Shown in pieces: positions 13,149 to 31,481 of a stretch of DNA of 38,142 nt. A model generated the notes under the pieces. That model had not been told where the DNA came from and did not search any database. It saw only the letters and a program-made list of their open reading frames with translations. The stretch covers positions 1-38,142 of the forward strand of contig VGEV01000018.1 of assembly GCA_016869175.1 (NCBI GenBank), read 5' to 3'. Position 1 is the first letter of the stretch. Every line of letters begins with the position of its first letter. Origin of the DNA: Alphaproteobacteria bacterium (GTDB lineage Bacteria; Pseudomonadota; Alphaproteobacteria; GCA-2731375). The translations under genes and the position numbers were made by a program.

Positions 13149-13175
13149 TTGAAAAATCTAATCCAATTCGATAGT
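13149..13175 (+). promoter_or_regulatory. Putative mraZ/dcw promoter
   Basis: TTGAAA at 13149-13154 and GATAGT at 13170-13175 are separated by 15 bp, a little short of the ideal. Transcription would start near 13182, just before the MraZ boxes. An alternative -35, TTGACT at 13183-13188, overlaps the first box but has only a poor -10 at 13203-13211. Either way the operators would sit on or just after the promoter, as expected for repression by MraZ. Confidence 0.4.
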
Positions 13176-13186
13176 TGATCGTTGAC

Positions 13187-13221
13187 TCCCATTTTTCCCC
13201 ATGATATCCCATTTCATCCCA
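13187..13221 (-). promoter_or_regulatory. Four MraZ-box repeats (TGGGR, 10-bp period)
   Basis: TCCCA at 13187, CCCCA at 13197, TCCCA at 13207 and TCCCA at 13217 (plus strand) read as four direct TGGGR repeats on the minus strand, each separated by exactly 5 nt. Known MraZ operators are TGGGN direct repeats with 5-nt spacers upstream of mraZ, so this is very likely the autoregulatory operator of the cluster. One helical turn per repeat fits binding by several subunits of the ring-shaped MraZ on one DNA face. Confidence 0.85.
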
Positions 13222-13284
13222 GGATAGGCCGCCGCACGCCGCGCATGGCCGGGCCCTGCGGACCTCCAGGGGCGGAGGGCTGAC

Positions 13285-13749
13285 TTGGCGCTGTTCCTGT
13301 CGCGCTACGAGGGGCGGATCGACCGCAAGGGGCGGGTGCTGGTGCCGGCGCCATTCCGAGCGGCGGTGGCCGACCAGCGCTTCGGTGGCGTTGTCTGCTA
13401 TCCCTCTCCGGTCGAGCTGGCCATCGAGGGCTGCGACCTGGCGCGCATCGAATTGCTGGCCAATTCGATCGACAGTCTCAATCCTTTCAGCGCCGAGAAC
13501 GGCGCCTTCGCCACCACCATCTTGGGTAAGTCCCATCAGCTGGCGTTCGATCCGGAGGGGCGCGTCAGCCTGCCCGAAGCGCTTGTCGCCTTCGCCGGAA
13601 TCGCCGGCGCCATGTGGTTCGTCGGCCTGGGCAAGACCTTCCGCATCTGGTCGCCGGAGCGGCTGGCGGCCTACGAACGGGAAGCCGAGAAGCTGGCGCG
13701 CAACGAGGCCGGCCGGCTGGCGCTGAGGCCACAAGGGGTGGCAACGTGA
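13285..13749 (+). CDS. mraZ: Transcriptional regulator MraZ
   Basis: First gene of the division and cell-wall cluster. MraZ is a DNA-binding protein with two SpoVT/AbrB-like domains that forms a ring oligomer and represses its own operon. The 154-aa product shows both repeats: FLSRYEGRIDRKGRVLVPAPFR near residues 4-25 and SHQLAFDPEGRVSLPEAL near 80-100. The start is TTG at 13285, set by GGCGGAGGG at 13271-13279 and by the family N terminus (FLSRYEG). Four matching operator repeats lie 64-98 bp upstream. The stop overlaps the GTG of rsmH by 4 nt (GTGA). Confidence 0.96.
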   Translation: MALFLSRYEGRIDRKGRVLVPAPFRAAVADQRFGGVVCYPSPVELAIEGCDLARIELLANSIDSLNPFSAENGAFATTILGKSHQLAFDPEGRVSLPEALVAFAGIAGAMWFVGLGKTFRIWSPERLAAYEREAEKLARNEAGRLALRPQGVAT

Positions 13750-14699
13750 GCTTGCGCGAGCACGTGCCGGTCATGGCGGCCGAGGTGGTCGCCGCGCTGG
13801 CCCCGGCGGACGGCGAGGTCATGGTCGACGGCACGTTCGGCGCCGGCGGCTATTCCCGGGCGCTGTTGCAGGCGGCCGATTGCCGGGTGTTCGCGATCGA
13901 TCGCGACTCGCGGGCGATTGCCATGGGCCAGGCCATGGCGGCAAGTCATATGGGACGTCTGGTCCTGCTGCATGGCCGGTTCGGCCAGATGGATCGGCTG
14001 TTGGCGGCGCGAGAGGTTGCGGCCGTCGACGGCGTCGCCCTCGACCTTGGCGTGTCTTCGCGGCAACTGGACGATCCGACGCGCGGGTTCTCGTTTCAGG
14101 CCGACGGACCGCTCGACATGCGCATGCAGGCCGAGGGCGAGAGCGCGGCAGACGTTGTCAACGGCGCGAGCGAGGTCGAACTGGTCGACCTGCTGCGGCG
14201 CTACGGCGAGGAGCCGCAAGCCCGCCGCATCGCTCGCGCCATCGTCGAGGCGCGCGCCGCCCGCCGGATCGAACGCACCGCAGAGCTGGCCGAACTCGTC
14301 GAGCGGACGATTGGCCGCGGTCAGCGCCTCCACGCGGCGACCCGCACGTTCCAGGCGCTGCGCATCCAGGTGAATGAAGAATTGGGCGAACTTCAGCGCG
14401 GGCTCGCGGCCGCCGGGCGGCTGTTGCGGCCGGGTGGGCGGATCGCCGTCGTTTCGTTTCATTCGCTGGAGGATCGCATCGTGAAGCGCGTCTTGCAGTC
14501 GCCGCGCGAACAAGGCTCGCGCCATCTGCCGCCCCAGCCCGGACGCCCGGCGCCTTGCTTCCAGCCTCTGTTCCGGGGCGTGCGCAAGCCCAGTGTGGCC
14601 GAGATGGCACGCAATCCCCGAGCCCGTTCGGCCCGTCTCAGAGCGGCGAGCCGCACGACCGCGCCCGCCGCGATGGAGAGCTTCGCATGCGCCCCGTGA
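13746..14699 (+). CDS. rsmH: 16S rRNA (cytosine(1402)-N(4))-methyltransferase RsmH
   Basis: Methylates N4 of C1402 in the 30S decoding centre using SAM. The 317-aa product has the usual length. It opens with REHVPVMAAEVV; the SAM-binding loop is VDGTFGAGGYSRALL, followed by FAIDRD and ALDLGVSSRQLDDPTRGFSF; the C-terminal hallmarks are VVSFHSLEDRIVK and KPSVAEMARNPRARSARLR. GTG 13746 is the start: it overlaps the mraZ stop as GTGA, with AAGGGG upstream, and translation is probably coupled. It overlaps ftsL by 13 nt. Confidence 0.97.
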   Translation: MSLREHVPVMAAEVVAALAPADGEVMVDGTFGAGGYSRALLQAADCRVFAIDRDSRAIAMGQAMAASHMGRLVLLHGRFGQMDRLLAAREVAAVDGVALDLGVSSRQLDDPTRGFSFQADGPLDMRMQAEGESAADVVNGASEVELVDLLRRYGEEPQARRIARAIVEARAARRIERTAELAELVERTIGRGQRLHAATRTFQALRIQVNEELGELQRGLAAAGRLLRPGGRIAVVSFHSLEDRIVKRVLQSPREQGSRHLPPQPGRPAPCFQPLFRGVRKPSVAEMARNPRARSARLRAASRTTAPAAMESFACAP

Positions 14700-15064
14700 C
14701 GTTCTGGACCGCGTTCCTTGCCGTCCTGTTGGCTTTCGGGCTGTATTCCCTGGCCCACGATGTGCAGCGCCTGCAACGCCAGACGGGCGAGGTGCGCCGG
14801 CAGATCGCCCAGGAATCCCAGGCGCTGCAAACGCTGAAGGCCGAATGGAGCTATCTCAACCGGCCCGATCGCCTGCAAGCGCTGGTGGCGGCCAACCAGG
14901 CGGCGTTGGGCTTGGTTCAGTCCTTGCCGCACCAGACCGCCAGCTTCGCCGCGCTTTGGCAGCGCTCGGAGATCCTGGCTCGCGCGCTCGAAGGCCAGGC
15001 CGCCACCCAACCGCGGGGCAAGACGCCGCTCGTTCAGGTCGCCAACGCCAGGCGGGCGCAATGA
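14687..15064 (+). CDS. ftsL: Cell division protein FtsL
   Basis: A 125-aa bitopic division protein. A short N terminus is followed by one membrane segment (about residues 6-24, FWTAFLAVLLAFGLYSLAH) and a periplasmic coiled coil (VQRLQRQTGEVRRQIAQ) with the conserved LKAEWSYLNRPDRL patch seen in FtsL proteins. It forms a complex with FtsB/FtsQ and activates FtsWI. Sequence similarity in this family is low, so position between rsmH and ftsI is part of the evidence. The ATG at 14687 has GGAG at 14675-14678 and overlaps the end of rsmH by 13 nt; its stop overlaps the ftsI start as ATGA. Confidence 0.92.
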   Translation: MRPVTFWTAFLAVLLAFGLYSLAHDVQRLQRQTGEVRRQIAQESQALQTLKAEWSYLNRPDRLQALVAANQAALGLVQSLPHQTASFAALWQRSEILARALEGQAATQPRGKTPLVQVANARRAQ

Positions 15065-16773
15065 TCGACGCGCCGCCGGCCGGCCAACCTGCCATCCTGC
15101 TGCTGGGCGCCCGCGAGCAGGCGCTCAGGGTCGGGCGGCAGCGGCTGGCGCTGGTGGCGCTGTTCCTGGGCGCGGCCTTTTGCCTGATCGCCGGCCGCCT
15201 GGTCGAGCTTACCCTGCTGCGTGACTTGGCGGGCGAACGCCGCGCCAGTCAGGCGGCGGCGCTCAAGCCGGACCGGGCCGAGATCGTCGATCGCAACGGT
15301 CTGCTGGTCGCGGGCAACTTGGCCACGGCTTCGCTCTATGCCGATCCCCGGCTGGTGTTCGATGTCGACGGCACGGCGGACAAGTTGATGGCGACCTTGC
15401 CCGGCTTGCGGCGCGAGGAACTGGTCGAGCGCTTGCAACTGCCGCGCAGTTTCGTCTGGCTGCGGCGCAATCTGACGCCTCGCCAACAGCAGGAAGTGGC
15501 GAAACTCGGGCTTTCCGGGCTGGATTTCCAGGCCGAGTATCGCCGGGTCTATCCGCTGGGCCCGCTGGCCGCCCATGTGGTCGGGCTGACCGACATCGAC
15601 AAGCGCGGCATCGCCGGGATCGAGAAGTCGTTCGACGCCGAATTGCGCGGCCGGGCCGCCGGCGGCGAGCCGCTGCGCCTGTCGATCGATATCCGGGTGC
15701 AACATGCGGTGCGCGACGAGTTGCAGCGGGCGGTTGCTCAATTCCGCGCCGATGGTGGCGGCGCGCTGGTGCAGGATGTTCGCACGGGCGAACTGCTGGC
15801 GTTGGTCTCGTTGCCGGACTTCGATGCCAACGATCCCGCGGCGGCCGATCGCGACGCGCTATTCAACCGCATGACGCTCGGCGTCTATGAGTTGGGCTCG
15901 GTGTTCAAGATCTTCACCTTGGCCATTGGCCTTGACAGCGGGGCGACGACGCTGGGCCAGGGCTACGATGCGACCAGGCCGATCGCCATTTCCCACTTCA
16001 CTATTCGTGACGACCATCCCAAGGCACGGTTCCTGACAGTGCCGGAAATACTGATCTATTCCTCCAATATCGGCGCCGCCAAAATGGCGGTCGACTTCGG
16101 TACCAAGGTTCAGCAGCACTATCTGCAACGCCTGGGCCTGCTGCAACGCGCGCCTGTCGAACTGCCTGAGGTGGGCATGCCCCTCAGTCCCAGCCCGTGG
16201 CGCGAAATCAACACCATGACGATCGCCTTCGGGCACGGCGTCGCGGTCAGCCCGCTGCAATTCGCCAGCGCGGTGACGACGGTGGTGAACGGCGGCATCT
16301 ACCGCCCGCCCACGGTGCTGCGCCGCGAACCCGGCGAACTGCCGGGCCAGCGGGTGCTGAGTGCGGAGGCCTCGCAGGCGATGCGCGGCCTGCTGCGCCA
16401 GGTGGTGTTGCAGGGCACCGGCAAGAAGGCCGATGTGCCGGGCTTCCATGTTGGCGGCAAGACGGGCACCGCCGAGAAAGTGCGCGGCAACGGCTATGCG
16501 CGCCGCTCGCTGCTGTCGTCTTTCGTGGGCGTATTTCCGATGCACGAGCCGCGCTATGTCGTCTATGCGCTGCTGGACGAACCGCAGGGCACCAAGGAAA
16601 CCCACGGCTACGCTACGGCGGGCTGGACCGCGGCGCCGACGGTCGGGCGCATGGTCGAGCGGATCGCGCCCCTGCTGGGGCTGCCGCCGGTCGCGGAAAC
16701 GGTCGCGGTTGGCGAGCTTGGCGGGCGCGGCGGCGGCAACGAAGGCAGGGGTCACAAGGTTGCGGCTCAGTGA
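15061..16773 (+). CDS. ftsI: Septal peptidoglycan transpeptidase FtsI (PBP3)
   Basis: Class B penicillin-binding protein that cross-links septal peptidoglycan with FtsW. The 570-aa product has an N-terminal membrane anchor (about residues 30-50, LALVALFLGAAFCLIAGRLV), a pedestal domain and a transpeptidase domain with the three active-site motifs: SVFK at 280-283 (nucleophile Ser280), SSN at 334-336 and KTGT at 467-470. The start ATG overlaps the ftsL stop as ATGA. The end overlaps murE by 14 nt. Confidence 0.97.
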   Translation: MIDAPPAGQPAILLLGAREQALRVGRQRLALVALFLGAAFCLIAGRLVELTLLRDLAGERRASQAAALKPDRAEIVDRNGLLVAGNLATASLYADPRLVFDVDGTADKLMATLPGLRREELVERLQLPRSFVWLRRNLTPRQQQEVAKLGLSGLDFQAEYRRVYPLGPLAAHVVGLTDIDKRGIAGIEKSFDAELRGRAAGGEPLRLSIDIRVQHAVRDELQRAVAQFRADGGGALVQDVRTGELLALVSLPDFDANDPAAADRDALFNRMTLGVYELGSVFKIFTLAIGLDSGATTLGQGYDATRPIAISHFTIRDDHPKARFLTVPEILIYSSNIGAAKMAVDFGTKVQQHYLQRLGLLQRAPVELPEVGMPLSPSPWREINTMTIAFGHGVAVSPLQFASAVTTVVNGGIYRPPTVLRREPGELPGQRVLSAEASQAMRGLLRQVVLQGTGKKADVPGFHVGGKTGTAEKVRGNGYARRSLLSSFVGVFPMHEPRYVVYALLDEPQGTKETHGYATAGWTAAPTVGRMVERIAPLLGLPPVAETVAVGELGGRGGGNEGRGHKVAAQ

Positions 16774-18217
16774 ATTGTGCAAGGGCAGCGTGCCGGACGG
16801 CGTCCCCGACATGGACGTGACAGGTCTGACCGCCGATAGCCGGGCGGTCGAGCCGGGCTTTCTGTTCGCGGCGCTCGCCGGCGCGCGGGCCGACGGGTTG
16901 GACTATGTCGACGAGGCCGTGCGGCGCGGGGCTGTCGCGGTTCTGGCGGCGCCGGATCCGCGCTTGGCGCGCGTTGCCTTGCCGCGCATCGTCGATCCCC
17001 AACCGCGTCGGCGCTTTGCCCAGATGGCGGCCCGCATGCATCCCGGGCAGCCGGCCACGGTCGTTGCCGTCACCGGCACCAACGGCAAGAGCTCGGTCGT
17101 GGCCTTCGCCCGGCAGCTCTGGCGCCAGCTCGGACGGCGGGCGGCAAGCCTGGGCACACTGGGCCTGGATGCGCCCGGCGGCATCCAGCCGGCGGCCCAC
17201 ACGACACCTGAGCCGGTGGCGCTGCACCGCCTGCTGCGACGGCTGGCGCAGGACGGCGTCGAGTGCCTGGCGATGGAGGCTTCCAGCCACGGGATCGACC
17301 AGTGCCGGCTGGACGGGGTCCGGCTCCAGGCCGCGGCTTTCACCAGTTTCAGCCGCGACCACCTCGACTATCACGCGACGGCCAAGGCCTATCTCGCAGC
17401 CAAATTGCGGCTGTTCGAAGTGGTCATGGGGGCGGGTGGCACGGCGGTCATCAACGCCGACATGGCCGAAGCGGCCGAGGTCGCCGCCGCCTGCCGACGC
17501 CGCGGTCACTTGGTCCTCGGCTATGGCCTGGCCGGCGAGGACTTACGCCTGATCGATGCCCGGCCCGATCGTCAGGGCATGGCGCTGAGCCTTGAACTGC
17601 GCGGCACCCGGCACGGGCTGAGGCTGCCGCTGGTCGGCGACTTCCAGGCCATGAACGCGCTGGCCGCCGTGGGCTTGCTGCTGGCCTGCGGCGAAGCCCC
17701 GGCGGCACTGGTGGCCGGCCTTGCCCGCCTGCAGCCGGTGCCGGGCCGCCTGCAACGTGCCGCGACCCTGGCCAACGGCGCCGAGATCTTCGTGGACTAC
17801 GCGCACACGCCGGACGCCCTGAAACATGCCCTCTTGGCCTTGCGGCCGCACGCTGGCGGCCGGCTGCTGGTGGTGTTCGGCTGCGGCGGCGAGCGCGACC
17901 GCGGCAAGCGCCCGCTGATGGGCGCGGTCGCCAAGGCATTGGCCGACCGCGTCGTCGTGACCGACGACAACCCGCGCGGCGAGGATCCCGCCGCCATTCG
18001 TCGCGCCGTGTTGGCCGGCTGCCCGGGCGCCGAGGAGATCGGCGACCGCCGCGCCGCCATTCGCGCCGCCACAATGACGCTGCAATCGGCTGACATCCTG
18101 CTGATCGCGGGCAAGGGGCACGAGACGGGACAGATCGCCGGCGGGCTGACGCGGCCCTTCGACGACGTGGAGGAAGCGCGCATGGCGGCCGCACCGCCCG
18201 GGGCAGGCACGGCATGA
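16760..18217 (+). CDS. murE: UDP-MurNAc-L-Ala-D-Glu:meso-diaminopimelate ligase MurE
   Basis: Cytoplasmic ATP-dependent ligase that adds the third residue to the muramyl peptide. The 485-aa product has the UDP-binding region LTADSRAVEPGFLFAAL, the ATP loop VTGTNGKSSV at 104-113, EASSHGI, FSRDHLDYH and AGKGHET near the end. DNPR at 403-406 is the motif that selects meso-diaminopimelate rather than lysine, so the wall is DAP-type. I choose TTG 16760 (MRLSELCKG) because family members begin with this segment; it overlaps ftsI by 14 nt, with GGCAGGGG upstream. The first in-frame ATG at 16811 would cut into the UDP-binding domain. Confidence 0.95.
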   Translation: MRLSELCKGSVPDGVPDMDVTGLTADSRAVEPGFLFAALAGARADGLDYVDEAVRRGAVAVLAAPDPRLARVALPRIVDPQPRRRFAQMAARMHPGQPATVVAVTGTNGKSSVVAFARQLWRQLGRRAASLGTLGLDAPGGIQPAAHTTPEPVALHRLLRRLAQDGVECLAMEASSHGIDQCRLDGVRLQAAAFTSFSRDHLDYHATAKAYLAAKLRLFEVVMGAGGTAVINADMAEAAEVAAACRRRGHLVLGYGLAGEDLRLIDARPDRQGMALSLELRGTRHGLRLPLVGDFQAMNALAAVGLLLACGEAPAALVAGLARLQPVPGRLQRAATLANGAEIFVDYAHTPDALKHALLALRPHAGGRLLVVFGCGGERDRGKRPLMGAVAKALADRVVVTDDNPRGEDPAAIRRAVLAGCPGAEEIGDRRAAIRAATMTLQSADILLIAGKGHETGQIAGGLTRPFDDVEEARMAAAPPGAGTA

Positions 18218-19638
18218 GTGAGGGGGCGCTCTGGCAAGCCGACGAGGCGGCACAGGCAACCGGCGGGCGCGCCAGTGGCCAGTGGTCCGCAACCGGCGTC
18301 AGCATCGACAGCCGCAGCGTCGAGCCGGGCGATCTGTTTGTCGCCCTGCGCGGCCCCAGCCGTGACGGCCATGCCTTTGTCGGCTCGGCGCTGAAACAGG
18401 GGGCGGCCGCGGCAATGGTAACGCACCTGCCCGCCGGCTTGCCGTCAACGGTCCCGCATCTGCTGGTCGACGACACGCAAAGCGCGCTGGCCGCGTTGGC
18501 GCGCCGCGCCCGCGCCCGCGCCGAGCGGGTTGGCCTGGTCGCCGTCACGGGCAGCGTTGGCAAGACCTCGACCAAGGAGGGCCTGCGCCTGGCCCTCGAG
18601 CGGCAAGGCAAGACCTTCGGTTCGCCTGGCAACCTCAACAACCATTGGGGCGCGCCGCTCAGCCTTTCCCGCCTGCCGGCCGATGCGCGCTTCGCTGTGC
18701 TGGAGCTCGGCATGAATCACGCGGGCGAGATCGGACCGCTCAGCCGATTGGCCCGGCCCTATGTCGCGGTCGTCACCACCGTTGAGGCGGTGCATCTCGA
18801 GTTCTTCGAGTCGGTGCAAGGCATCGCCGATGCCAAGGCCGAGCTCTTCGAGGGTCTCGAGGACGGCGGCATTGCCGTGTTGAACCGGGACAACGCGTTC
18901 TTCGACCGGCTCGCGTCCGCCGCCCGGACGCGTGGCGCCGGCCGCGTTCTGGGCTTCGGCGAACATCCGCAGGCCGACGTGCGGCTGCTCTCACTCACGC
19001 TGTTTGCGGCGACCAGCCACCTGACCGCCGACGTGGATGGCTGCTGCGTCTCCTACAAGGTGGGCGCGCCGGGCCGCCACATGGCCCTGAACAGCCTGGC
19101 GATCCTGGCTGCCGTGAAAGCGCTGGGCGCCGATGTGGGGCTGGCAGCGCTGGCGCTGGCGGATCTCTCGGCGCTGAAAGGCCGCGGCCGGCAATGCGAG
19201 GTGCCGGTATCGGGCGGCGGATTCACCCTGCTGGACGAGAGCTACAATGCCAGCCCCGCCTCGCTCCGCGCCTCGCTTGAGGTGCTGGGCCGCGTGCCGA
19301 TCGGCCCACGCGGCCGGCGCATCGCGGTGCTGGGCGACATGCTGGAACTGGGCGCTGCCGCGCCCGAGCTGCATGCGGAACTGGCCAAGCAGATGCTGGA
19401 GAACGGCATTGATCTTGTCTTCTGCTGCGGCGCCAACATGGCGCACCTGGCGGCGGCCCTGCCGGCGGAGCGGCTGGCGCGGCATGCGGCCGATGCGACC
19501 GCGCTGCGCCCCGCCGTGCTGGCAAGCATGCGCAACGGCGATGCGGTGATGGTCAAGGGCTCCTTCGGCATGGGCATGGCAAGCCTGGTGGAGGCGCTGC
19601 TCGCCCTCCGCCAGCCCGCCGAGCGACTGAAGGCCTAG
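18214..19638 (+). CDS. murF: UDP-MurNAc-tripeptide:D-Ala-D-Ala ligase MurF
   Basis: Adds D-Ala-D-Ala to complete the UDP-MurNAc-pentapeptide. The 474-aa protein has [16 protein letters not shown], the ATP-binding [10 protein letters not shown] at 111-120, [27 protein letters not shown] and the C-terminal-domain [13 protein letters not shown] and [10 protein letters not shown], all typical of MurF. ATG 18214 overlaps the murE stop (ATGA). mraY follows after 4 bp. Confidence 0.97.
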
Positions 19639-19642
19639 CGCG

Positions 19643-20731
19643 ATGCTGTTCAACCTGCTGTTTCCGCTGGCGGACGAGATCGGAGTGTTCAATCTGTTCC
19701 GTTATCTCACCTTTCGCACCGGCGGGGCGGTGATCACCGCGCTGGTGATTTCCTTCGCTTTCGGGCCGGCTCTCATCCGCACGTTGCGCGCGCGCCAGGG
19801 CAAGGGCCAGCCGATCCGCGACGATGGCCCCAAGAGCCACCTGCTGACCAAGCAGGGCACACCCACCATGGGTGGCGCGCTGATCCTGATGGCGTTGTCG
19901 ATCAGCACGCTGCTCTGGGCCGATCTCACCAACGCCTATGTCTGGGCGGTCCTGCTGGTGACCGCGGGCTTCGGCGCCATCGGCTTTGCCGACGACTATC
20001 TCAAGGTGTCGCGGCGCAACGTGCGGGGCGTGCCCGGGCGGATCAAGCTTGGCTGCGAATTGCTGGTGGCGACGGCGGCGGCCCTGCTCATCCTGTGGGC
20101 GGCGCCCGAGCGGCTGTCGACCGGTCTGGCCGTGCCGTTCCTGAAGGCCGTGCTGCTCGATCTGGGTTGGTTGTTCGCGCCGTTCGCCGTGCTGGTCATG
20201 GTGGGCGCGTCGAACGCCGTCAACCTGACCGACGGGCTGGACGGGCTGGCGATCGGGCCGGTCATCATCACCGCGCTGGCCTTCGCGCTCATCGCCTATC
20301 TCGTGGGCAACGCCGTCTTCGCCAACTACTTGCAGATCCACGGCGTTCCGGGGGCGGGCGAGTTGGCAGTGTTCTGCGGCGCGTTGGCTGGCGCGGGCCT
20401 GGGCTTCCTCTGGTTCAACGCGCCGCCCGCCATGGTGTTCATGGGCGATACGGGCAGCCTGGCGCTGGGCGGCGGTTTGGGCGGCGTCGCCGTCGTCACC
20501 AAGCACGAACTGGTCCTGGTGGTGATCGGCGGCTTGTTCGTGCTGGAGACGGTTTCCGTCATCGTCCAGATCGCCTCCTACAAGCTGACCGGTCGACGGG
20601 TGTTTCGCATGGCGCCGTTGCACCATCACTTCGAACAGAAGGGCTGGGCCGAACCGACTGTGGTCATTCGCTTCTGGATCATCGCCGTCATCCTGGCGCT
20701 GGTCGGCCTTGCCACCTTGAAGCTGCGCTAG
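19643..20731 (+). CDS. mraY: Phospho-N-acetylmuramoyl-pentapeptide transferase MraY
   Basis: Integral membrane enzyme that moves phospho-MurNAc-pentapeptide onto undecaprenyl phosphate to form lipid I. The 362-aa product, the normal length, has about ten membrane segments. Conserved cytoplasmic motifs are [16 protein letters not shown] (catalytic Asp pair), [22 protein letters not shown] and the HHHFE triad of MraY. It starts with ATG 19643, 4 bp after murF, and ends 3 bp before murD. Confidence 0.98.
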
Positions 20732-20734
20732 GCG

Positions 20735-22126
20735 ATGGACCCTCGCAATCCATATTCCGGCAGCCGCGTGGCGGTGTTCGGCCTGGCGCGTTCCGGCCTC
20801 TCGGCGGCGCGCTGGCTGGCGGCCGCGGGCGCCGAGGTGCTGGCCTGGGACGACGATGCCGGACGCCGTGCCGCCATCGCCAGCCTGCCAGTGCGCGCCG
20901 TTGCGCCCGACCCCGGCGGTTGGGCGGGCATCGAAGCCTTGGTGCTCAGCCCGGGCGTGCCGCTCAGTCATCCGCAACCCCATCCGGTGGTCGCGCTGGC
21001 GCGCCGGTTGGGTGCCCGCGTGATCGGCGACATCGAAGTGTTCGCCACCGCCTTTCCGGCGGCGCGCGTGGTCGGCATCACCGGCACCAATGGCAAATCG
21101 ACGACCACGGCCTTGATCGGCCATCTGCTGCGTGCGGCCGGTCGGCCGGTGGCGGTCGGCGGCAATCTGGGGACGCCGGTCCTGGACCTGCCAGGCCTGC
21201 CTCGCAACGGCACCCACGTGCTGGAACTGTCCTCGTTCCAGCTCGACCTGACGACGAGCCTGAAGCCGGCGGTCGCGGTCTGGCTCAACCTGACACCCGA
21301 TCATCTCGACCGGCACGGCGATCTGGCGGGCTATGTGGCGGCCAAGCGCCGCCTGCTGGACATGGCGCCGCCCGAGGCGACTTTGGTGATCGGCATCGAC
21401 GACCCGGCGAGCCTCGCCCAGGTGACCGCCTTGCAGGCCGCCGGACGTGAAGTGTTGCCGGTTGCCGTTGGCCGCGCCATCGAGCACGGCATCCATGCCA
21501 TCGACGGCCGCCTCTATCGGCAGGAAACGCTGCTGGCGGATCTGAACGGCATCCGCTCGCTGCGCGGTGCGCACAACTGGCAGAACGCCGCCGCGGCAGT
21601 GGCGGCGGGACTGGCGCTCGGCCTGGGCCGCGATGAACTGCGCGCGGGCTTGCCCAGTTTCGCCGGCCTGCCGCACCGCATGGAGCAGGTCGGGCTGATC
21701 GACGGCATCGCCTTCGTCAACGACAGCAAGGCCACCAATGCCGAGGCGGCGGCGCGGGCCTTGGCCAGCTTCGGGAGCATCTATTGGATTGCCGGCGGCC
21801 TGCCCAAGACCGGCGGCATCGGCGCGCTGACGCACTACTTCCCGCGGGTTCGTCAGGCCTTCTTGATCGGCCAGGCAGCGCCCGAATTCGCCCGGACGCT
21901 GGCCGGTCGAGTGCGCTGCCAGCAATCGGGCGACCTGGCAACGGCGCTGCACCAAGCCTACGCCGCCGCACGCGCCGATGGCGCGCCCGAACCCGTGGTC
22001 CTGCTTTCGCCCGCCTGCGCGTCGTTCGACCAGTTCGCCAACTACGAGGCCCGAGGCGACCGCTTTCGTGAGCTCGTCGCCGCCATGACAGGCGGGCCGG
22101 TGTCCCGGGAGGCAGTACGATGCTGA
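20735..22126 (+). CDS. murD: UDP-MurNAc-L-alanine:D-glutamate ligase MurD
   Basis: ATP-dependent ligase adding D-Glu to UDP-MurNAc-L-Ala. The 463-aa product has an N-terminal UDP-binding fold (VAVFGLARSGLSAARWL, LVLSPGVPLSHP), the ATP loop GITGTNGKSTTT at 114-125, ELSSFQLD, NLTPDHLDRHG and the C-terminal FVNDSKATN and LLSPACASFDQF, all MurD hallmarks. The stop overlaps the ftsW start by 7 nt. Confidence 0.97.
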   Translation: MDPRNPYSGSRVAVFGLARSGLSAARWLAAAGAEVLAWDDDAGRRAAIASLPVRAVAPDPGGWAGIEALVLSPGVPLSHPQPHPVVALARRLGARVIGDIEVFATAFPAARVVGITGTNGKSTTTALIGHLLRAAGRPVAVGGNLGTPVLDLPGLPRNGTHVLELSSFQLDLTTSLKPAVAVWLNLTPDHLDRHGDLAGYVAAKRRLLDMAPPEATLVIGIDDPASLAQVTALQAAGREVLPVAVGRAIEHGIHAIDGRLYRQETLLADLNGIRSLRGAHNWQNAAAAVAAGLALGLGRDELRAGLPSFAGLPHRMEQVGLIDGIAFVNDSKATNAEAAARALASFGSIYWIAGGLPKTGGIGALTHYFPRVRQAFLIGQAAPEFARTLAGRVRCQQSGDLATALHQAYAAARADGAPEPVVLLSPACASFDQFANYEARGDRFRELVAAMTGGPVSREAVRC

Positions 22127-23244
22127 GCCTGGCGCGCACCGACAATAGCGTGATCGCCCACTGGTGGTGGACGATCGACCGCTGGATGCTGTTCGCCTTG
22201 GCGGCGCTGATCGCGCTCGGCAGCGTGCTGACGATGGCAGCAAGCCCGGCGGTGGCCGAGCGGATCGGCCTCGAGCCGTTTCACTTCGCGCGCCGGCAAA
22301 TTGGCTTTCTGCTGCCGGCGGTCCTATTGATCTTCTTCATTTCGCTGCTGACGCCGCGCAGCATCCGCCGCCTGGCTGCGCTCGGCTTCCTGGCAACGCT
22401 GCTGCTGATGGTCCTGACGCTCGTGCTCGGCCACGAAACCAAGGGCGCCACGCGTTGGTTGTCGCTGGCGGGATTGTCGTTGCAGCCCTCGGAATTTGCC
22501 AAGCCGTTCTTCGTCGTCGTGACCGCCTGGATGCTGGCCGAGCAGCGCCGGCATGACGGGCTGCCGGGCAACGCGATCGCGGCGGCGCTGCTGATGACGA
22601 TGCTGGGCGTGTTGGCGGCGCAACCGGATTTCGGCATGGCGGCGCTGGTTGCCAGCACTTTCGCATGTCAGCTGTTCATTGCCGGCTTGCCCTATCTCTT
22701 CGTCGCGGGGCTGGCCGGGCTTGGCGTCGTCGGCGCAGGCGCCGCCTACAACCTGAGCGCGCATGTGCGCAGCCGGATCGATCGCTTCCTCAATCCGGAG
22801 TCGGGCGACGGCTTCCAGATCGAACAGGCCATGCAGGCGTTCGGCAGCAGCGGATGGTTCGGCCGTGGGCCCGGCGATGGCATCGTCAAGCGCACCATCC
22901 CGGACGCCCATACCGACTTCATCTTCGCGGTCGCGGCGGAGGAGTTCGGTCTCGTGCTTTGCCTTGTCATTGTGCTGCTGTTCGCCTTCATTGCCTTGCG
23001 CGGATTGCTGCGCATCGTGCACGAGGATCGGCTGTTCACCATGCTGGCGGCGGGCGGTCTGCTGGCCGAGTTCGGCTTGCAAGCGGTCGTCAATATCGGG
23101 GTCAATCTGCACCTGCTGCCGACCAAGGGCATGACATTGCCGTTCCTGTCCTATGGCGGCTCCTCGCTGCTGGCGTTGGCCATTGCCATGGGCATGCTGC
23201 TGGCCTTGACCCGCCGGCACCAAGACCCGGGAGATCTGCCATGA
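22120..23244 (+). CDS. ftsW: Septal peptidoglycan glycosyltransferase FtsW (SEDS family)
   Basis: Polytopic membrane protein that polymerises lipid II at the septum with FtsI. The 374-aa product has about ten membrane segments and the SEDS signatures: KGATRWLSLAGLSLQPSEFAK in the first half, PDAHTDFIFAVAAEEFG in the large periplasmic loop (the Asp here corresponds to the catalytic residue of SEDS polymerases) and LPTKGMTLPFLSYGGSS near the end. GGGAGG at 22107-22112 sets the ATG at 22120. Its stop overlaps the murG start as ATGA. Confidence 0.97.
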   Translation: MLSLARTDNSVIAHWWWTIDRWMLFALAALIALGSVLTMAASPAVAERIGLEPFHFARRQIGFLLPAVLLIFFISLLTPRSIRRLAALGFLATLLLMVLTLVLGHETKGATRWLSLAGLSLQPSEFAKPFFVVVTAWMLAEQRRHDGLPGNAIAAALLMTMLGVLAAQPDFGMAALVASTFACQLFIAGLPYLFVAGLAGLGVVGAGAAYNLSAHVRSRIDRFLNPESGDGFQIEQAMQAFGSSGWFGRGPGDGIVKRTIPDAHTDFIFAVAAEEFGLVLCLVIVLLFAFIALRGLLRIVHEDRLFTMLAAGGLLAEFGLQAVVNIGVNLHLLPTKGMTLPFLSYGGSSLLALAIAMGMLLALTRRHQDPGDLP

Positions 23245-24377
23245 CGCGTTTGCGGCCGGTTGCGTTGGCGGCCGGCGGTACCGGAGGCCATGTGTTTCCG
23301 GCCGAGGCTTTGGCGGAGGAGCTGGAGCGGCGCGGTCGTCGCGTCATCTGCTTGACCGATCAGCGCGGCGCCCGGTTCGGCGAGCGGTTCAGTGCCCCCG
23401 AGGCCTATCGCCTGCGTGCCGTCAGCGATAGCGGCCGCGGACCGCTCGGCCGGATGGCCGCCTATTTCGAAATCGGAGTGAGCGTGCTGCAGGCGCGCCG
23501 CGTGCTGGCGCGCAGCCGGGCCGCGGCGGTGATCGGCTTCGGCGGCTACCCGGCGATTCCGGCCGTGCTGGCAGGCGGCCTGTTGGGGCTGCCGACCGCC
23601 CTGCACGAGCAGAACGCGGTGCTGGGGCGCAGCAACCGTTTCCTGGCGGGGCGCGTGCAGGCGATCGGCCTGGGCTTCCCGCACACGGCGCGGCTGCCCG
23701 CCAGCCTGCAAGCCAAGGTGGTGGTGACCGGCAATCCGCTCGGCAGCCGGGTGACGGCGCTGACCAACCGCGGCTATGTAGCGCCGGGGCAAGGGGAACC
23801 CTTCAACTTCCTGGTAGTGGGCGGCAGCCAAGGGGCGCGCATGCTGTCCGAGGCGGTGCCTGCGGCGTTGGCCTTGCTCTTGCCCGCGCAACGCCGACGG
23901 CTTGCGCTGACGCTGCAATGCCGGCCCGAGGATCGCGAGGCGACGGCCGCCAGCCTCGCCCGGCACGAGATTCGCGCCGAACTCGCGAGCTTCTTTTCCG
24001 ATCTGCCCGAGCGACTCGCCGATTCACATCTGGTGCTGGCACGCTCCGGCGCCGGCACCGTGGCGGAGTTGGCGGCGATCGGCCGACCGGCGCTCCTGGC
24101 GCCCTATCCGTTCGCCGCCGACGACCATCAAAGCGCCAATGCCCAGGCGATGGTGGCGGCGGGTGGCGCTTGGCTGGTGCAGGATGCGGATCTGGAACCG
24201 CGGGCGCTTGCGACCCGCCTGGCCGAATTGATGGCGGAGCCGCAGCGCCTCGCCGCGAGCGCCGAACGGGCGCGGGCTTTTGGCCGGCCGCGGGCGACGG
24301 CCGTGCTGGCCGATCTGCTGGAGGGGCTGTTGGCTCAGGCGGATTGCCCGGTCGTGGAAACCCGGAGGGCGGCATGA
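23241..24377 (+). CDS. murG: Lipid II synthase MurG (UDP-GlcNAc transferase)
   Basis: Peripheral membrane GT-B glycosyltransferase that adds GlcNAc to lipid I. The 378-aa product has the G-loops [12 protein letters not shown] (about residues 10-21) and [11 protein letters not shown], then [28 protein letters not shown] and the UDP-GlcNAc-binding [12 protein letters not shown], with [13 protein letters not shown] after it. The start at ATG 23241 overlaps ftsW (ATGA); the long open frame upstream is the shadow of ftsW. It overlaps murC as ATGA. Confidence 0.97.
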
Positions 24378-25810
24378 GGGCGTTACCGCGCGATATCGGT
24401 CCCATCCATTTCATCGGTATCGGCGGCATCGGCATGAGCGGCATCGCCGAAGTCATGCGCAATCTGGGCTACCGGGTGCAGGGCAGCGACCAGGCCGATA
24501 GCGCGAATCTCAAGCGGCTGCGGGCGCTCGGCATACCGGTGGCGATCGGGCATCGGCCGGAGAATCTGGGCGAGGCCCAGGTGGTGGTGATCTCCTCGGC
24601 GGTGAAGGGCGGCAATCCGGAAGTGCTGGCCGCCCGCTCGGCCCTGGTGCCGGTGGTGCGCCGGGCGGAAATGCTGGCCGAACTGATGCGGCTCAAATGG
24701 TCCATCGCGGTGGCGGGCACGCATGGCAAGACCACCACCACCTCGATGATCGCCACCTTGCTGGAGACGGCGGGCTGGGATCCGACGGCGATCATCGGCG
24801 GCATCCTGAACGCGCTTGGCAGCAATGCCCGGCTGGGTGCCGGCGATTGGATGGTGGTGGAGGCCGACGAAAGCGACGGCAGCTTCGTCAAGTTGCCGGC
24901 CACGGTCGCCATCGTCACCAATATCGATCCCGAACATCTCGACTTCTATGGCAGTTTCGACAAGCTGCGCGGCGCCTTTCAGGCGTTTGTCGAGAACCTG
25001 CCGTTCTACGGCTTCGGCGCGCTCTGCATCGATCACCCGGAGGTGCAGGCGCTGATCGGCCGCATCGAGGATCGGCGCATCGTCTCCTACGGCTTCAGCC
25101 CGCAGGCCGACGTGCGGGCCGTGGATGTCGGCCTGTCGCCCGAGGGAGCGCGCTTCACCGTGCGGCTGTCCGACCGCATGACCGGCGGCGAGCGCGCCAT
25201 CGAGGCGCTGCGGTTGCCGATGTTCGGACAGCACAACGTGCAGAACAGCCTGGCGGTGGTCGCGGTCGGTGTTGAGTTGGGCCTGGAGGATGCGATCATC
25301 CGGCAGGCGCTGGCCCGCTTCAGCGGCGTCAAGCGCCGCTTCACCAAGACCGGCGAGGTGGGCGGCATCACGGTGATCGACGATTACGGTCATCATCCGG
25401 TCGAGATCGCCGCCGTGCTGAAGGCGGCCCGTACCGTGTGTCGGGGGCAGGTGCTGGCGGTCGTGCAGCCGCACCGGTATACCCGGCTCGCCAGCCTGTT
25501 TGAGGAGTTCTGCACCTGCTTCAACGATGCCGACGCCGTGCTAGTGGCCGACATCTATGCCGCCGGCGAGGCGCCGATCGAAGGAATCGGCCGCGACGCC
25601 CTGGTCGACGGCCTGCGTCAGCATGGCCACCGCCGCGTGCTGTCGTTGCAGGCGCCCGCGGAATTGGCGCCGATGGTCAACGAGATGGCGCGGGCCGGCG
25701 ACTATGTCGTCTGCCTGGGTGCCGGCAGCATCACCAATTGGGCGAACGCCCTGCCGGAGGAATTGCGCGCTCTGCGCGGCCGCATCCGCCTGGGCGGGCT
25801 GGGGCGATGA
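24374..25810 (+). CDS. murC: UDP-MurNAc:L-alanine ligase MurC
   Basis: First amino-acid ligase of the pathway. The 478-aa product begins with the glycine-rich [18 protein letters not shown] (residues 11-28), carries the ATP loop [11 protein letters not shown] at 114-124, [32 protein letters not shown] and [11 protein letters not shown], all diagnostic for MurC. ATG 24374 overlaps murG (ATGA). Its stop overlaps the murB start as ATGA. Confidence 0.97.
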
Positions 25811-26754
25811 TGGCGCGGCCCAGCACACGAGGCGGCCCGATGGAGCGCCTGCCGGCGGTGCGCGGCCGTCTGGTGGCCGAGGCGGCGTTGGCGCCGTTGA
25901 CCTGGTTCGGCGTTGGCGGGCCGGCCGAGCTGCTGTTCGAGCCGGCCGACGAGACCGACCTTGCCGCCTTCCTGAGGGCGCGCCCGGACGATCTGCCGAT
26001 CATGCCGATGGGCGCGGCGTCCAACCTTCTGGTGCGCGATGGCGGCATTGGCGGGGTGGTGCTGCGGCTCGGCGCCGGCTTCACCGGCATCGCCGTGTCG
26101 GGCAGCGAACTGACCGTGGGCGCGGGCGCGTTCGATGTGAAGATTGCCAGCGCCGCGCGTGACGCCGGCATCGCTGGCTTGGAATTCTTTCGTGGCATTC
26201 CGGGCACGCTGGGTGGCGCCTTCCGCAGCAACGCCGGTGCGTTCGGCGGCGAGTTGCGCGACGTGTTGGTCGAGGCCGTGGCGTTGGACGGACACGGTCG
26301 GCGGCACGTGCTGAAGGCGGCCGAACTCAAGCTGGCTTATCGCAGCGCGGAAATTCCGGCTGACTGGATCTTCGTTCAAGCGCGGCTGACTGGCCGGCCG
26401 GGCGATCCGCGGGCGATCAGCGAGCGCATGCGGGCGATCGCCGAAGCGCGCGAGACGGCGCAGCCGGTCAAGGCGCGTAGCGGCGGCAGCACGTTCAAGA
26501 ATCCGCCCGGCCGCAAGGCCTGGGAACTGATCGACGCCGCCGGTTGCCGCGGCATGACCCGCGGGCGGGCGCAGGTATCCGAGCGGCATTGCAATTTCCT
26601 GGTCAATCTGGGGGCGGCGACGGCGACCGACCTGGAGACCCTGGGCGAGGAAGTCCGCCGGCGCGTGCAGGCGCATTGCGGCGTCAATCTGGAATGGGAA
26701 GTGGTGCGGGTGGGCGAGTTCGCCCGCACGCCAAGTATAGAGTTGAAGCCATGA
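25807..26754 (+). CDS. murB: UDP-N-acetylenolpyruvoylglucosamine reductase MurB
   Basis: FAD enzyme that reduces UDP-GlcNAc-enolpyruvate to UDP-MurNAc with NADPH. The 315-aa product shows [32 protein letters not shown] (FAD site), [44 protein letters not shown] (with the active-site Ser) and [15 protein letters not shown] 25807 overlaps the murC stop (ATGA) and is preferred; a second ATG at 25840 with GAGG at 25829-25832 would give a 304-aa protein that begins just before the conserved part. murB overlaps ddl as ATGA. Confidence 0.96.
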
Positions 26755-27662
26755 GTCGAAGAATCGCGTTGCTGATGGGCGGCTGGTCGAACGAGCGCGA
26801 GGTCTCGCTGACCAGCGGTCGCGCCTGTGGCCGGGCACTGGAAGAGGAAGGCTTCGAAGTCGAGGCCGTGGATGTCGGGCGCGACCTTGCCTGTGTCCTG
26901 TCCGCGCTCAAGCCCGACTTGGCGTTCAACGCGCTGCACGGCGGCTTCGGCGAGGACGGCTCGGTGCAGGGGTTGTTGGAGGTCTTGGGCATTCCCTACA
27001 CCCATTCCGGCGTGCGCGCCTCGGCGTTGGCGATGAACAAGCCGGCCGCCAAGCAGGTTTTCGCCGGCGTCGGGTTGCGTTGCCCGGACGGGCTGGTGGT
27101 CGATGTGGCGGAGTTGCGCCGGGGCGATCCCATACCCAGGCCCTATGTCGTCAAGCCGGTGGCGGAGGGCTCCACGGTCGGGGTGCGCATCGTGCGCCAG
27201 GGCGACAACGCCGCCGTGCTGCCGGCCGACTGGCGCTTTGGCGACAGGGCGCTGGTGGAACGCTTTATCCCGGGGCGGGAATTGTCGGTCGCGGTGCTGG
27301 GCGACGCTGCCCTGGGCGTGATCGAGATCCGTCCGCATAGCGGCTTCTATGACTACGATGCGAAATATACCGAAGGCCTGGCGCAGCACCTGATGCCGGC
27401 GCCGATCCATCCCGAGGTCTATGACGAGGCCATGCGGATGGCTCTGGAGGCGCATCGCGCCCTGGGTTGCCGGGGGGTGTCGCGGGCCGACTTGCGCTAT
27501 GACGACATGGCGGGCGAGCCGGGCGAACTCTATCTGCTCGAAGTCAACACCCAGCCCGGCATGACGCCGCTCAGCTTGGTGCCCGAGATCGCGCAGCATC
27601 GCGGCATTGATTTCCGTCGCTTGGTGCGTTGGATGGTGGAGGACGCGGCATGCAACCGCTGA
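26751..27662 (+). CDS. ddl: D-alanine:D-alanine ligase
   Basis: ATP-grasp ligase that makes the D-Ala-D-Ala dipeptide used by MurF. The 303-aa product, the normal DdlB length, has LLMGGWSNEREVSLTSG at the N terminus, ALHGGFGEDGSVQGLLE, IPYTHSGVRASALAMNK, VKPVAEGSTVGV and the C-terminal LEVNTQPGMTPLSLVPE, which includes the Mg2+ ligands. ATG 26751 overlaps murB (ATGA). The end overlaps ftsQ by 13 nt. Confidence 0.97.
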   Translation: MSRRIALLMGGWSNEREVSLTSGRACGRALEEEGFEVEAVDVGRDLACVLSALKPDLAFNALHGGFGEDGSVQGLLEVLGIPYTHSGVRASALAMNKPAAKQVFAGVGLRCPDGLVVDVAELRRGDPIPRPYVVKPVAEGSTVGVRIVRQGDNAAVLPADWRFGDRALVERFIPGRELSVAVLGDAALGVIEIRPHSGFYDYDAKYTEGLAQHLMPAPIHPEVYDEAMRMALEAHRALGCRGVSRADLRYDDMAGEPGELYLLEVNTQPGMTPLSLVPEIAQHRGIDFRRLVRWMVEDAACNR

Positions 27663-28510
27663 GGGTCGATCACGCCGACCGCCCGCTCGCGGTGGCCGAG
27701 CCCGCCCCGGCGCGCCGTCGGCCGTGGCCGGGATGGTTGCGGCGGGCCTTGCCGCGATTGCTGTCGGTGGGCGCGCTCTTGCTGTTCCTGTCGGCCGCGT
27801 GGCTCGCCTGGCGTCTGGCGATCGGCGACGAACCGGGGCGCGCAGTCGGTGAGGCCGGCCATCGGGCGGCGGTGGCGCTCGGGTTTGGGCTGCGGGACGT
27901 CTATGTGGTCGGCCGGCAGGAAACCCCGGCCGACGACGTGCGCCGGGCGCTGGCGGTGGCGCCGGGCGACTCGATCTTCGCGGTCGATCTCGAGGCGGCG
28001 CGCGAGCGGCTGCTGCGCCTGGGCTGGGTCGGCGAGGCCCACGTCAACCGCCGCCTGCCGGGCACCATCGAGGTGCGCTTGCACGAACGGCGGCCGTTCG
28101 CGCTTTGGCAGTTGGATGGTCGGCTGGCGTTGGTCGACCGCACCGGCGCGGTGATTCAGCGTGCCGGCCTGGAGCGTTTCCATGCCTTGCCGTTGGTGGT
28201 GGGGGAGCGCGCGGGCGAACTGGCGCATGTCATTGTCGACCTGCTGGAGCTGCAACCGGAGTTGTCGCACCAGGTCGAGGCGGCGATGCTGGTCGGCCAA
28301 CGGCGCTGGAACCTGAAGCTGCGCAATGGCGCCGAGGTGCTTCTGCCGGAGGAGGATCCGGCGGGCGCGCTGCACCGTCTGGCGGCGTTGCAGCGTTCGC
28401 ATGAAATTCTCAATCGCGAGGTCGCGCGCATCGATCTGCGGCTGCCGGACCGGCTGGTGGTTCGCGGGCTGCCGGCCGGCAAGCGTCGCGACGGCGACAA
28501 AGACACATGA
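27650..28510 (+). CDS. ftsQ: Cell division protein FtsQ
   Basis: Bitopic inner-membrane divisome protein linking FtsL/FtsB to other components. The 286-aa product has an Arg-rich cytoplasmic start, one membrane segment (about residues 36-57), a POTRA domain (about 68-140: VYVVGRQETPADDVRRAL to EVRLHERRPFALW) and a beta domain with ALVDRTGAVI. ATG 27650 is selected by TGGAGGA at 27637-27643 and overlaps ddl by 13 nt; an upstream in-frame start at 27629 is less likely. The stop overlaps ftsA as ATGA. Confidence 0.95.
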   Translation: MQPLRVDHADRPLAVAEPAPARRRPWPGWLRRALPRLLSVGALLLFLSAAWLAWRLAIGDEPGRAVGEAGHRAAVALGFGLRDVYVVGRQETPADDVRRALAVAPGDSIFAVDLEAARERLLRLGWVGEAHVNRRLPGTIEVRLHERRPFALWQLDGRLALVDRTGAVIQRAGLERFHALPLVVGERAGELAHVIVDLLELQPELSHQVEAAMLVGQRRWNLKLRNGAEVLLPEEDPAGALHRLAALQRSHEILNREVARIDLRLPDRLVVRGLPAGKRRDGDKDT

Positions 28511-29757
28511 GGCGCGCGATGTCGGTCGGTCGCAACAGCCTCGTCGCCGCGCTCGATATCGGCACGACCAAGGTCTGCTGCTTCGTCGCCAAGCCCGATG
28601 GCCAGGGCGGCAGCCGGGTGGTCGGCATCGGCCACCAGGTGAGCCGCGGCATCAAGGCGGGCGCGGTGGTGGACTTCGACCTGGCCGAGAGCGCGGTGCG
28701 CAACGCGGTCGAAGCCGCCGAACGGATGGCCGAGGAGCGGGTCGAGCAGGTCATCGTCAACGTTACCGGTGCGCAAGCCCAGGCGCAGACCGTGGGCGTC
28801 GAGGTCGCCATCGCCGGTCATCAGATCGGCGATGCCGACCTGCAGCGGGTGCTGGACCAGACCCAAGCGCATGGCGCGCAGCCCGAACGGCGGCTGCTGC
28901 ACGCCGTCCCCACCGATTTCACCATCGACGGCAATCGCGGCATACGCGACCCTCGCGGCATGTTCGGCGCGAACCTGGGCGTCATGCTCAACCTGGTAAG
29001 CGTTGCCGACGGGCCGCTGCGCAATCTGGAACTGGTGGTGCAACGCTGCCATCTGGAAGTTGCCGACCGTGTGCTGTCGGCCTATGCGTCGGGCTTGGCG
29101 ACGCTTGTGGAGGACGAGACCGACCTGGGCGTGACCGTGCTCGACATGGGGGGCGGCACCACCGGCCTCTCGGTCTTCTATGGCGGCAGCCTGGTCTTCG
29201 CCGATGTGATCCCGGTGGGCGGCCAGCACGTCACCAATGACATTGCCCGCGGCCTGGCGACGCCCGTGGCGCAGGCCGAACGCCTGAAGACGCTTTACGG
29301 CAGCGCCATACCCAGCCCCAGCGACGAACGCGAAATGCTGGCGGTGCCGCAGATCGGCGAACAGGGCGCCGACGCCGTGCAACAGGTCCCCCGCTCGATG
29401 CTGGTCGGCATCATCCAGCCGCGGATCGAAGAGACCTACGAGATGGTGCGCGAGCGATTGGAGGCGAGCGGTCACGCCCGGATCGCCGGTCGCCGCCTGG
29501 TGCTGACGGGCGGCGCCAGCCAGTTGACGGGCGCGCGCGAGTTGGCGGCCCGCGTGCTGGACAAGCAGGCACGCACTGGCCGGCCGTTGCGTCTGCAGGG
29601 GCTGGCCGAAGCGACGCAAGGGCCCGCTTTCGCGACCGCGGCCGGGCTGGTGGCCTATTCCTTGGCTCGGCCGTTTGACGTGGTGGGCCGCACCCAGGCT
29701 CGTGCGGCCTCCGGCCGGTTTGGCCGGTTTGGCCGTTGGCTCAAGGAGAACTTCTGA
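28507..29757 (+). CDS. ftsA: Cell division protein FtsA
   Basis: Actin-like ATPase that ties FtsZ to the membrane. The 416-aa product has the phosphate-1 loop [14 protein letters not shown], an adjacent 1C domain, the second phosphate region [14 protein letters not shown] and the adenosine motif [11 protein letters not shown]. The C terminus [12 protein letters not shown] is a clear amphipathic membrane-targeting helix. ATG 28507 overlaps ftsQ (ATGA); a second ATG is at 28519. A 95-bp gap follows before ftsZ. Confidence 0.97.
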
Positions 29758-29852
29758 TGCGAGGGCAGCGAGACGCGCCTGGAAATTATCCGTTACTTGG
29801 CGGAATAGTTGGGCATACTGAGGAAAATGCGAGAATCACCCAGGAGGGGGAG
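29758..29852 (+). promoter_or_regulatory. ftsA-ftsZ intergenic region
   Basis: This 95-bp gap is one of the few breaks in the cluster and is more A+T-rich than the flanking genes. It ends with a very strong ribosome binding site, AGGAGGGGGAG at 29842-29852, abutting the ftsZ ATG. A GANTC site (GAATC) lies at 29833-29837. Promoter-like hexamers (TTACTT 29793-29798, CATACT 29814-29819, 15-bp spacer) are weak. It may hold a separate ftsZ promoter; I cannot confirm one. The frame of ftsZ is open through the gap, but family alignment rejects the extension. Confidence 0.45.
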
Positions 29853-31481
29853 ATGAGTTTGAAGTTGAGCGCCCCAGAAGCGGTGGAGCTGAAGCCGCGC
29901 ATCGTCGTGATCGGCGTCGGGGGCGCCGGCGGCAACGCGGTCAACAACATGATCCGCTCTGGCCTGCAGGGCGTGGAGTTCATCGTCGCCAACACCGATG
30001 CGCAGGCGCTGAAGGGCAGCACCGCGGAACGCAAGGTGCAACTCGGCGCCGCCATCACGCAGGGCCTGGGCTGCGGCGCGCGGCCCGAGGTCGGACGCGC
30101 GGCGGCGGAGGAGACGATCGACACCATCCTCGATCACTTGCAGGGCACGCACATGGCCTTCATCACCGCCGGCATGGGCGGCGGCACGGGCACCGGGGCG
30201 GCGCCGGTGATCGCGCGGACCTGCCGTGACAGCGGCATGCTGACCATTGGTGTCGTGACCAAGCCGTTCCAGTTCGAGGGCACGCGGCGCATGCAGATCG
30301 CCGAACGCGGCATCGAGGAATTGCAGAAATACGTCGACACCCTGATCATCATCCCCAACCAGAACCTGTTCCGTGTGGCGAACGAGAAAACCACCTTCGC
30401 CGCCGCCTTCCAGATGGCCGACGAGGTGCTGCATTCGGGCGTGCGCGGCATCACCGACCTGATGGTGATGCCCGGGTTGATCAACCTCGACTTCGCCGAC
30501 GTCAAGACGGTGATGAGCGAGATGGGCAAGGCGATGATGGGCACCGGCGAGGCCGAGGGCGCGACCCGCGCCCTGGATGCCGCCGCGCGGGCGATCTCGA
30601 ACCCGCTGTTGGACGATGTCTCGATCAAGGGTGCGCAGGGCGTGCTGATCAACATCGCCGGCGGCCTGGATCTGACCCTGCACGAGGTCGACGAGGCGGC
30701 CAACTGCATCCGCCAGGCGGTCGATCCCGATGCCAATATCATCGTCGGCTCGGCGCTGGACGATTCACTGAACGGCAAGATGCGCATCTCCGTGGTCGCC
30801 ACCGGCATCGACGTGGAGCCGCAACAGGCCGAGCGGCCGGTGCTGACGGTCGTGGGTGGTAACGCGGTCGCCCGCCCGGCGTCGACGCCCGATCCCGTGG
30901 CGCGGACCGAGGCCCGGTCCGAACCGCCGCCGGCGGCATTGCTGGCAGCCAGCCCGACGGAACGGCCGATCGTCGCCAGCGGCGGCGGGGTGGTTGGCGC
31001 CGCCGCTCGGGTCCTGGCGCCCGAGGTCGGCTTGGCGGCCTCGGCGATGCGTGTGCCGGAGGCCAAACCGCTCGCGCCGGAGCGCGAACCGCTGCAGGGC
31101 AAGCCGCAGCCGGCGCCGGAAAATCGCGCCGAGCCGTTCATGCCGCCCGCTCCGCGCGAGCCGGCCGGCCGGCCGGAACTGTTCCGCAACTCGGAGGCCG
31201 CACCCGCCACGGCGGAGTCGCAAGCGGTCGCCAAGGATGTCAAGCGCGGGCGCGGCGGAAGCCTGTTGCGGCGCATGACGGGGGCCATGCTGTCGGGCGG
31301 CGATAACAAGGCGCCGGCGGCTGCGGCAGCCGTTGCGGTCGGCGACCTGGGCCCGGCCAAGGAGACCGCCGCGCCAACCTTGGGACGGGCGCAGCCGCCC
31401 GTCGATGGCAAGCTGCTGGCGCCGAAGCCTGAGGAAGACATTCTGGACATCCCCTCCTTCCTGCGTCGCCAGGCCAATTGA
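29853..31481 (+). CDS. ftsZ: Cell division protein FtsZ
   Basis: Tubulin-like GTPase that forms the cytokinetic ring. The 542-aa product has [15 protein letters not shown] (residues 19-33), the tubulin signature GGGTGTGAA at 109-117 and the T7 catalytic loop [10 protein letters not shown] at 211-220. The globular part ends near 320; a long Pro/Ala/Glu-rich linker of about 200 residues follows, then the conserved C-terminal peptide [12 protein letters not shown] that binds FtsA and other partners. The long linker is usual in alphaproteobacteria and explains the length beyond E. coli FtsZ (383 aa). ATG 29853 is fixed by the strong ribosome binding site. Confidence 0.98.

Follow-up and report, generated by a model that had tools for sequence, protein, structure and literature searches.

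Four phased repeats within the core promoter of an alphaproteobacterial mraZ gene as a probable MraZ operator of class-typical orientation

The region upstream of mraZ in the 38,142-nt stretch of alphaproteobacterial DNA analyzed here (the window) carries four copies of the word YCCCA, which raises the question of whether these form an operator for MraZ and how their orientation, opposite to that of the operon, is to be understood. The repeats were recovered where the original prediction had placed them, at 13187 (TCCCA), 13197 (CCCCA), 13207 (TCCCA) and 13217 (TCCCA), with a period of exactly 10 bp (Table 1). Read on the minus strand, they are four TGGGR direct repeats with a TGGG core, each consisting of a 5-bp box and a 5-bp spacer, and they directly precede mraZ and the dcw cluster. 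The three-box pattern YCCCA-N5-YCCCA-N5-YCCCA matched the window twice, these matches being two overlapping triplets of a single array, and was found in 0 of 100 dinucleotide shuffles of the window. The search for this pattern covered 15 genomes of the window's family (the same 15 that represent the order in the sampling below); in the window's own genome (G000) it returned just the two overlapping matches of the mraZ array. The phasing of the four boxes is far beyond chance.

Table 1. Features of the mraZ promoter region and the genes that follow it, with positions in the window.
Feature	Positions	Strand	Basis
-35 element TTGACT	13182..13187	+	TTGAC conserved in class logo and in at least 120 composite loci
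MraZ box 1 (putative), TGGGA on minus strand; first base doubles as last -35 base	13187..13191	-	sequence, class logo
MraZ box 2 (putative), TGGGG on minus strand; within promoter spacer	13197..13201	-	sequence, class logo
-10 element TATCCC, 17 bp from -35, extended TG at 13202-13203	13205..13210	+	logo, sequence, agreement with S. meliloti start
MraZ box 3 (putative), TGGGA on minus strand; overlapping -10	13207..13211	-	sequence, class logo
MraZ box 4 (putative), TGGGA on minus strand; at predicted transcription start	13217..13221	-	sequence, class logo
Predicted transcription start, within about 2 bp	13217..13217	+	offset rule, agreement with published S. meliloti leader
GGAGG ribosome binding site	13274..13278	+	sequence
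mraZ, 154 aa, TTG start	13285..13749	+	PF02381, 2.7e-14
rsmH (mraW), overlapping mraZ end	13746..14699	+	PF01795, 3.7e-91
Remaining dcw cluster: ftsI-like, Mur ligases, mraY-like, ftsW, murG-like, ftsA, ftsZ	15061..31481	+	Pfam matches

Two promoters had been offered for this locus, one using TTGACT as its -35 element and the other consisting of TTGAAA and GATAGT (13149-13154 and 13170-13175). The first of these was retained; the second was rejected because its elements are just 15 bp apart and the GATAGT positions are poor in information in the class logo. The boxes had also been placed just downstream of a promoter, but instead they lie inside TTGACT-N17-TATCCC. With transcription starting as predicted, the leader of mraZ would be 68 nt. 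The same offset rule applied to Sinorhizobium meliloti 4H41 gives a leader of 171 nt up to the ATG of MNRFLSHVTNRIDAKGR, and public sequencing data put the S. meliloti mraZ leader at 170 nt (PMC5089854). According to the same source, leaders of 70 nt or less are typical of species outside the Rhodobacteraceae, among them Caulobacter crescentus, and S. meliloti is the exception, while mraZ of Rhodobacter sphaeroides is transcribed solely from the distant UpsM promoter. The -10 element of the window departs strongly from the sigma-70 consensus, and box 3 constrains its sequence; part of the conservation described below could therefore belong to the promoter only.

A comparison of mraZ upstream regions from related alphaproteobacteria had been proposed as a check. 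We compared 118 such regions, comprising 15 from the order (including the window), 30 from other loci of the class and 73 chosen at about one per family, and found the phased repeats conserved, on the minus strand and often as four boxes. When four slots at 10-bp intervals were scored, at least three perfect CCCA were present in 83 of the 118 regions and four perfect CCCA in register in 37, while two regions had three or more perfect TGGG on the plus strand. A Markov null yielded three CCCA in 0 of 2360 sequences and three TGGG in 1 of 2360. The view of the fourth box as an extra half-site does not hold, given the 37 regions with four perfect CCCA and the four repeats published for Burkholderia cenocepacia (PMC7761207).

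The consensus for the class is TTGAC-n-CCCAT-n5-CCCATG-n-TATCCCAT-n5-CCCAT, with 29 fixed positions, and the information in the class logo peaks at boxes 2 and 3 and at the -10 element. At least 20 of the 29 positions of this composite were matched by 107 of the 118 alphaproteobacterial regions, a figure that is descriptive since the consensus was written after seeing that set; the window matches 28. Counted by family, this level was reached in 86 of 96, and 11 of the 118 regions have MraZ without the composite. Tests of the composite came from the Markov null, the non-alphaproteobacteria, the genomes that lack MraZ and a pattern scan. None of 354 Markov sequences reached 20 positions (largest score 19), nor did any of 64 non-alphaproteobacterial regions (largest 17). 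The array is an old control site common to nearly all related bacteria, and thus a trait of the class rather than of this genome in particular.

A scan of the genomes of named species with a 23-base composite pattern returned at least 120 stretches. Of the 120 matches listed, 114 have an MraZ gene directly behind them on the same strand; in the remaining six the sequence ends 73-233 bp past the site. The genera among the listed matches include Sinorhizobium, Rhizobium, Agrobacterium, Mesorhizobium, Microvirga, Azospirillum, Parvibaculum, Methylocella and Dongia, and the composite would serve as a ready-made definition of the operator in alphaproteobacteria, for example in Sinorhizobium, Agrobacterium and Azospirillum. 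All of the listed matches are titled alphaproteobacterial or unassigned Proteobacteria/Pseudomonadota, with one exception (L209). This is a contig of a MAG named Nitrosomonas that carries the alphaproteobacterial composite before mraZ and is probably mis-binned.

The orientation of the boxes on the strand opposite to the operon was confirmed, though as a property of the whole class. Strand was assessed by a score that is symmetric for both strands (three slots, 12 points, last 500 bp upstream). The minus strand outscored the plus strand in 111 of the 118 alphaproteobacterial regions (4 plus, 3 ties), whereas the plus strand outscored the minus strand in 58 of 64 regions from other Pseudomonadota (4 minus, 2 ties), a sample made up of the 30 best loci of a draw from the phylum and 34 chosen regions. 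By family, the alphaproteobacteria divide into 89 minus, 4 plus and 3 ties among 96, and the non-alphaproteobacteria into 29 plus and 1 minus among 30 (Fisher test, 9e-23). These counts make reverse orientation the rule in the class rather than a local peculiarity. Weak arrays are common outside the alphaproteobacteria, just 29 of the 64 regions having a plus-strand score of at least 11 of 12. One region (L100) bears a plus-strand array together with a minus-strand array. Among the low-scoring alphaproteobacteria, the members of family f49 (G281, G062 and G186) as well as G299, G090 and G140 have no clear array on either strand, and thus no intermediate of the strand change was found there.

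Autorepression by E. coli MraZ was reportedly described by Eraso in 2014. The E. coli Pmra promoter (NC_000913.3) resembles that of the window in having TGGGN boxes with a 10-bp period directly upstream of mraZ, these being TGGGA, TGGGG and TGGGA plus a degenerate fourth slot, a chain of three perfect TGGG. In E. coli the boxes follow the -10 element and read on the operon strand, whereas those of the window are on the opposite strand and inside the -35/-10 interval; the E. coli position is taken from PMC7761207, which also summarizes the autorepression. The B. cenocepacia site shares with the window four repeats at a 10-bp period (7 nt plus a 3-nt spacer), and a fragment containing it is bound by MraZ in EMSA, but this site is located downstream of the -10 element and overlaps the start site (PMC7761207). 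Direct repeats, AAAGTG[T/G], also occur in the mraZ promoter region of Mollicutes (PMC8475190), with a half-site sequence that differs from that of the window. MraZ boxes, their 10-bp phasing and arrays of four are already known. The window array does not share the operon-strand placement downstream of the -10 element seen in E. coli and B. cenocepacia, which we take as a feature of a sub-type and not as defining for MraZ operators overall. A literature search of partial coverage, which does not establish absence in print, found no alphaproteobacterial MraZ boxes, no inverted, promoter-embedded form and no report of DNA binding or expression effects for an alphaproteobacterial MraZ, and none of the MraZ box terms looked for was found in PMC9602371.

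The difference in strand could be read in another way, with alphaproteobacterial MraZ recognizing the operon-strand CCCAT as a different sequence, so that recognition changed and the protein was not flipped. The boxes are ATGGGR (minus strand) in the alphaproteobacteria and GTGGG (plus strand) elsewhere, and class-specific residues flank the conserved KGR motifs of MraZ, both of which agree with such a change. Against it, the common TGGG core and the equal 10-bp period are most simply explained by inversion of the same half-site. We consider a change in recognition rather unlikely, and it would be compatible with a MraZ operator at this position.

The presence of the array tracks that of mraZ. 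Thirty nearly complete alphaproteobacterial genomes gave no PF02381 match, and rsmH was found in 29 of them. An alphaproteobacterial MraZ profile built here detected MraZ before rsmH in seven of the 29 (L310 and six genomes of family f13) and in none of the other 22. These 22, in which no MraZ was detected just upstream of rsmH, belong to 12 families (L304-L309, L311-L319, L321, L323, L324, L328, L329, L331 and L333), and mraZ has apparently been lost repeatedly among them. The composite reached 20 positions in one of the 22 (L312 of family f70, with a score of 21) and in one of the seven genomes rescued by the profile (L310). Overall it was present in 108 of 125 regions with MraZ and in 1 of 22 without (Fisher test, 4e-14, computed on genomes, which are not independent events).

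Family f13 retains MraZ in a divergent form, missed by PF02381 at E 0.001, and all six of its genomes (L320, L322, L325, L326, L327 and L330) score below 20 for the composite. Arrays of four phased TCCC, in which the next base is usually C or G, were found in L320, L325, L327 and L330 (0 of 100 shuffles each); L322 has a weaker one (2 of 100), and L326 has none (97 of 100). Where it could be read, the MraZ motif of this family is KGRFVLPP (L320, L322 and L327) or KGRVAIPA (L326), the commonest form in alphaproteobacterial MraZ being KGRVSVP. It is possible that repressor and operator have diverged together in this family.

The conserved block might instead be chiefly an unusual dcw core promoter (TTGAC-N17-TATCCC) in which the outer boxes are incidental. 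The high information at boxes 2 and 3 and the -10 element agrees with this, as does the TTGACG...CCCATGGTACCC sequence kept in some MraZ-less genomes of f70 (L314 and L315), a decayed promoter relic upstream of rsmH that would be expected if selection on the promoter outlasts selection on the operator. However, the outer boxes also keep CCCA, with class-logo values of 0.67-0.95 at the positions of box 1 and 0.71-0.91 at those of box 4, and the array reaches upstream into the -35 element, slot -1 being occupied in 45% of 120 among the composite matches listed. In addition, the f13 arrays keep the 10-bp period with the last base changed, and 10-bp repeats are superfluous for a promoter alone, which leaves this explanation improbable. 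A shade less probable still is that the CCCAT periodicity is the site of another division regulator such as NtrX or CenR. Binding of both to the region before mraZ has been reported for R. sphaeroides (PMC7240162, PMC9275681), and CenR recognizes a direct repeat, but the reported motifs GCA-N9-TGC and TGA-N8-TGA are unlike 10-bp CCCA repeats, and we rejected NtrX and CenR sites as the identity of the array on this basis. Also against another regulator, the array disappears together with mraZ, its TGGG core is common to the E. coli mraZ array, and in the window's genome it occurs exclusively at mraZ. Nothing was found in favor of the repeats being a low-complexity stretch that arose by chance; this reading is contradicted by the shuffles and the Markov null, is refuted by the conservation across the class, and can be dismissed.

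We therefore favor, at a probability of roughly 0.87, the reading of the array as a MraZ autoregulatory operator built into the dcw core promoter, with binding, repression and steric occlusion of the polymerase predicted from sequence. Operator and promoter are backed by the array itself, the geometry of the promoter, the conservation of a single register across the class, the loss with mraZ and one published start site. The operator originally proposed is thus very probably correct, as judged by class conservation and loss alongside mraZ, and autorepression by MraZ through the array is its likely role. The four minus-strand TGGGR boxes would present one site per helical turn, from the last base of the -35 element through the spacer and the -10 element to about 13217. 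A ring-shaped MraZ oligomer could occupy several successive boxes along a single helical face, thereby covering the -35 element, the spacer, the -10 element and the start; RNA polymerase would be shut out, MraZ and polymerase being mutually exclusive, and mraZ and its downstream genes would be transcribed less. Since the -10 element precedes the boxes in E. coli and B. cenocepacia, the physical step that is blocked may differ there from that in the alphaproteobacteria.

With somewhat less assurance, we suggest that the operator, at or near the base of the alphaproteobacteria, was flipped in strand and shifted from downstream of the -10 element into the -35/-10 core promoter, that autorepression thereby went from a downstream block to direct occlusion of the promoter, and that f13 has since changed the MraZ DNA-binding motif and the box sequence together. 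The gene cluster that begins with mraZ is among the most conserved in bacteria, yet the studies of the MraZ operator that we found deal with gammaproteobacteria, betaproteobacteria and mollicutes. If true, a strand inversion that is common to the class and lies within the promoter would mean that an ancient repressor can work in either orientation and position. The natural losses of mraZ and the co-diverged family would offer test material for how the MraZ ring reads DNA.

The MraZ protein of the window matches PF02381 with 53.3 bits (cut-off 23) and retains the D-x-KGR and D-x-x-GR motifs of the two half-domains, common to nearly all MraZ compared. It has Leu at E. coli position 17, adjoining the KGR motif, where Ser is found in 98% of 45 alphaproteobacterial MraZ proteins. 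A phmmer search of the PDB with the window protein returned no MraZ entry, and E. coli MraZ matched 9qlr, 9qlg/9r4j, 9sx6/9sz7 and 1n0e-1n0g; a literature search for papers describing 9qlr, 9qlg/9r4j and 9sx6/9sz7 found none. Rfam identified no structured RNA in the mraZ leader, its sole match in the window being the bacterial class A RNase P RNA (RF00010, 254.8 bits) on the plus strand at 10450-10880, upstream of the dcw cluster. On the minus strand at 12070-12990 is a gene with a methyltransferase domain, whose transcription is directed away from mraZ.
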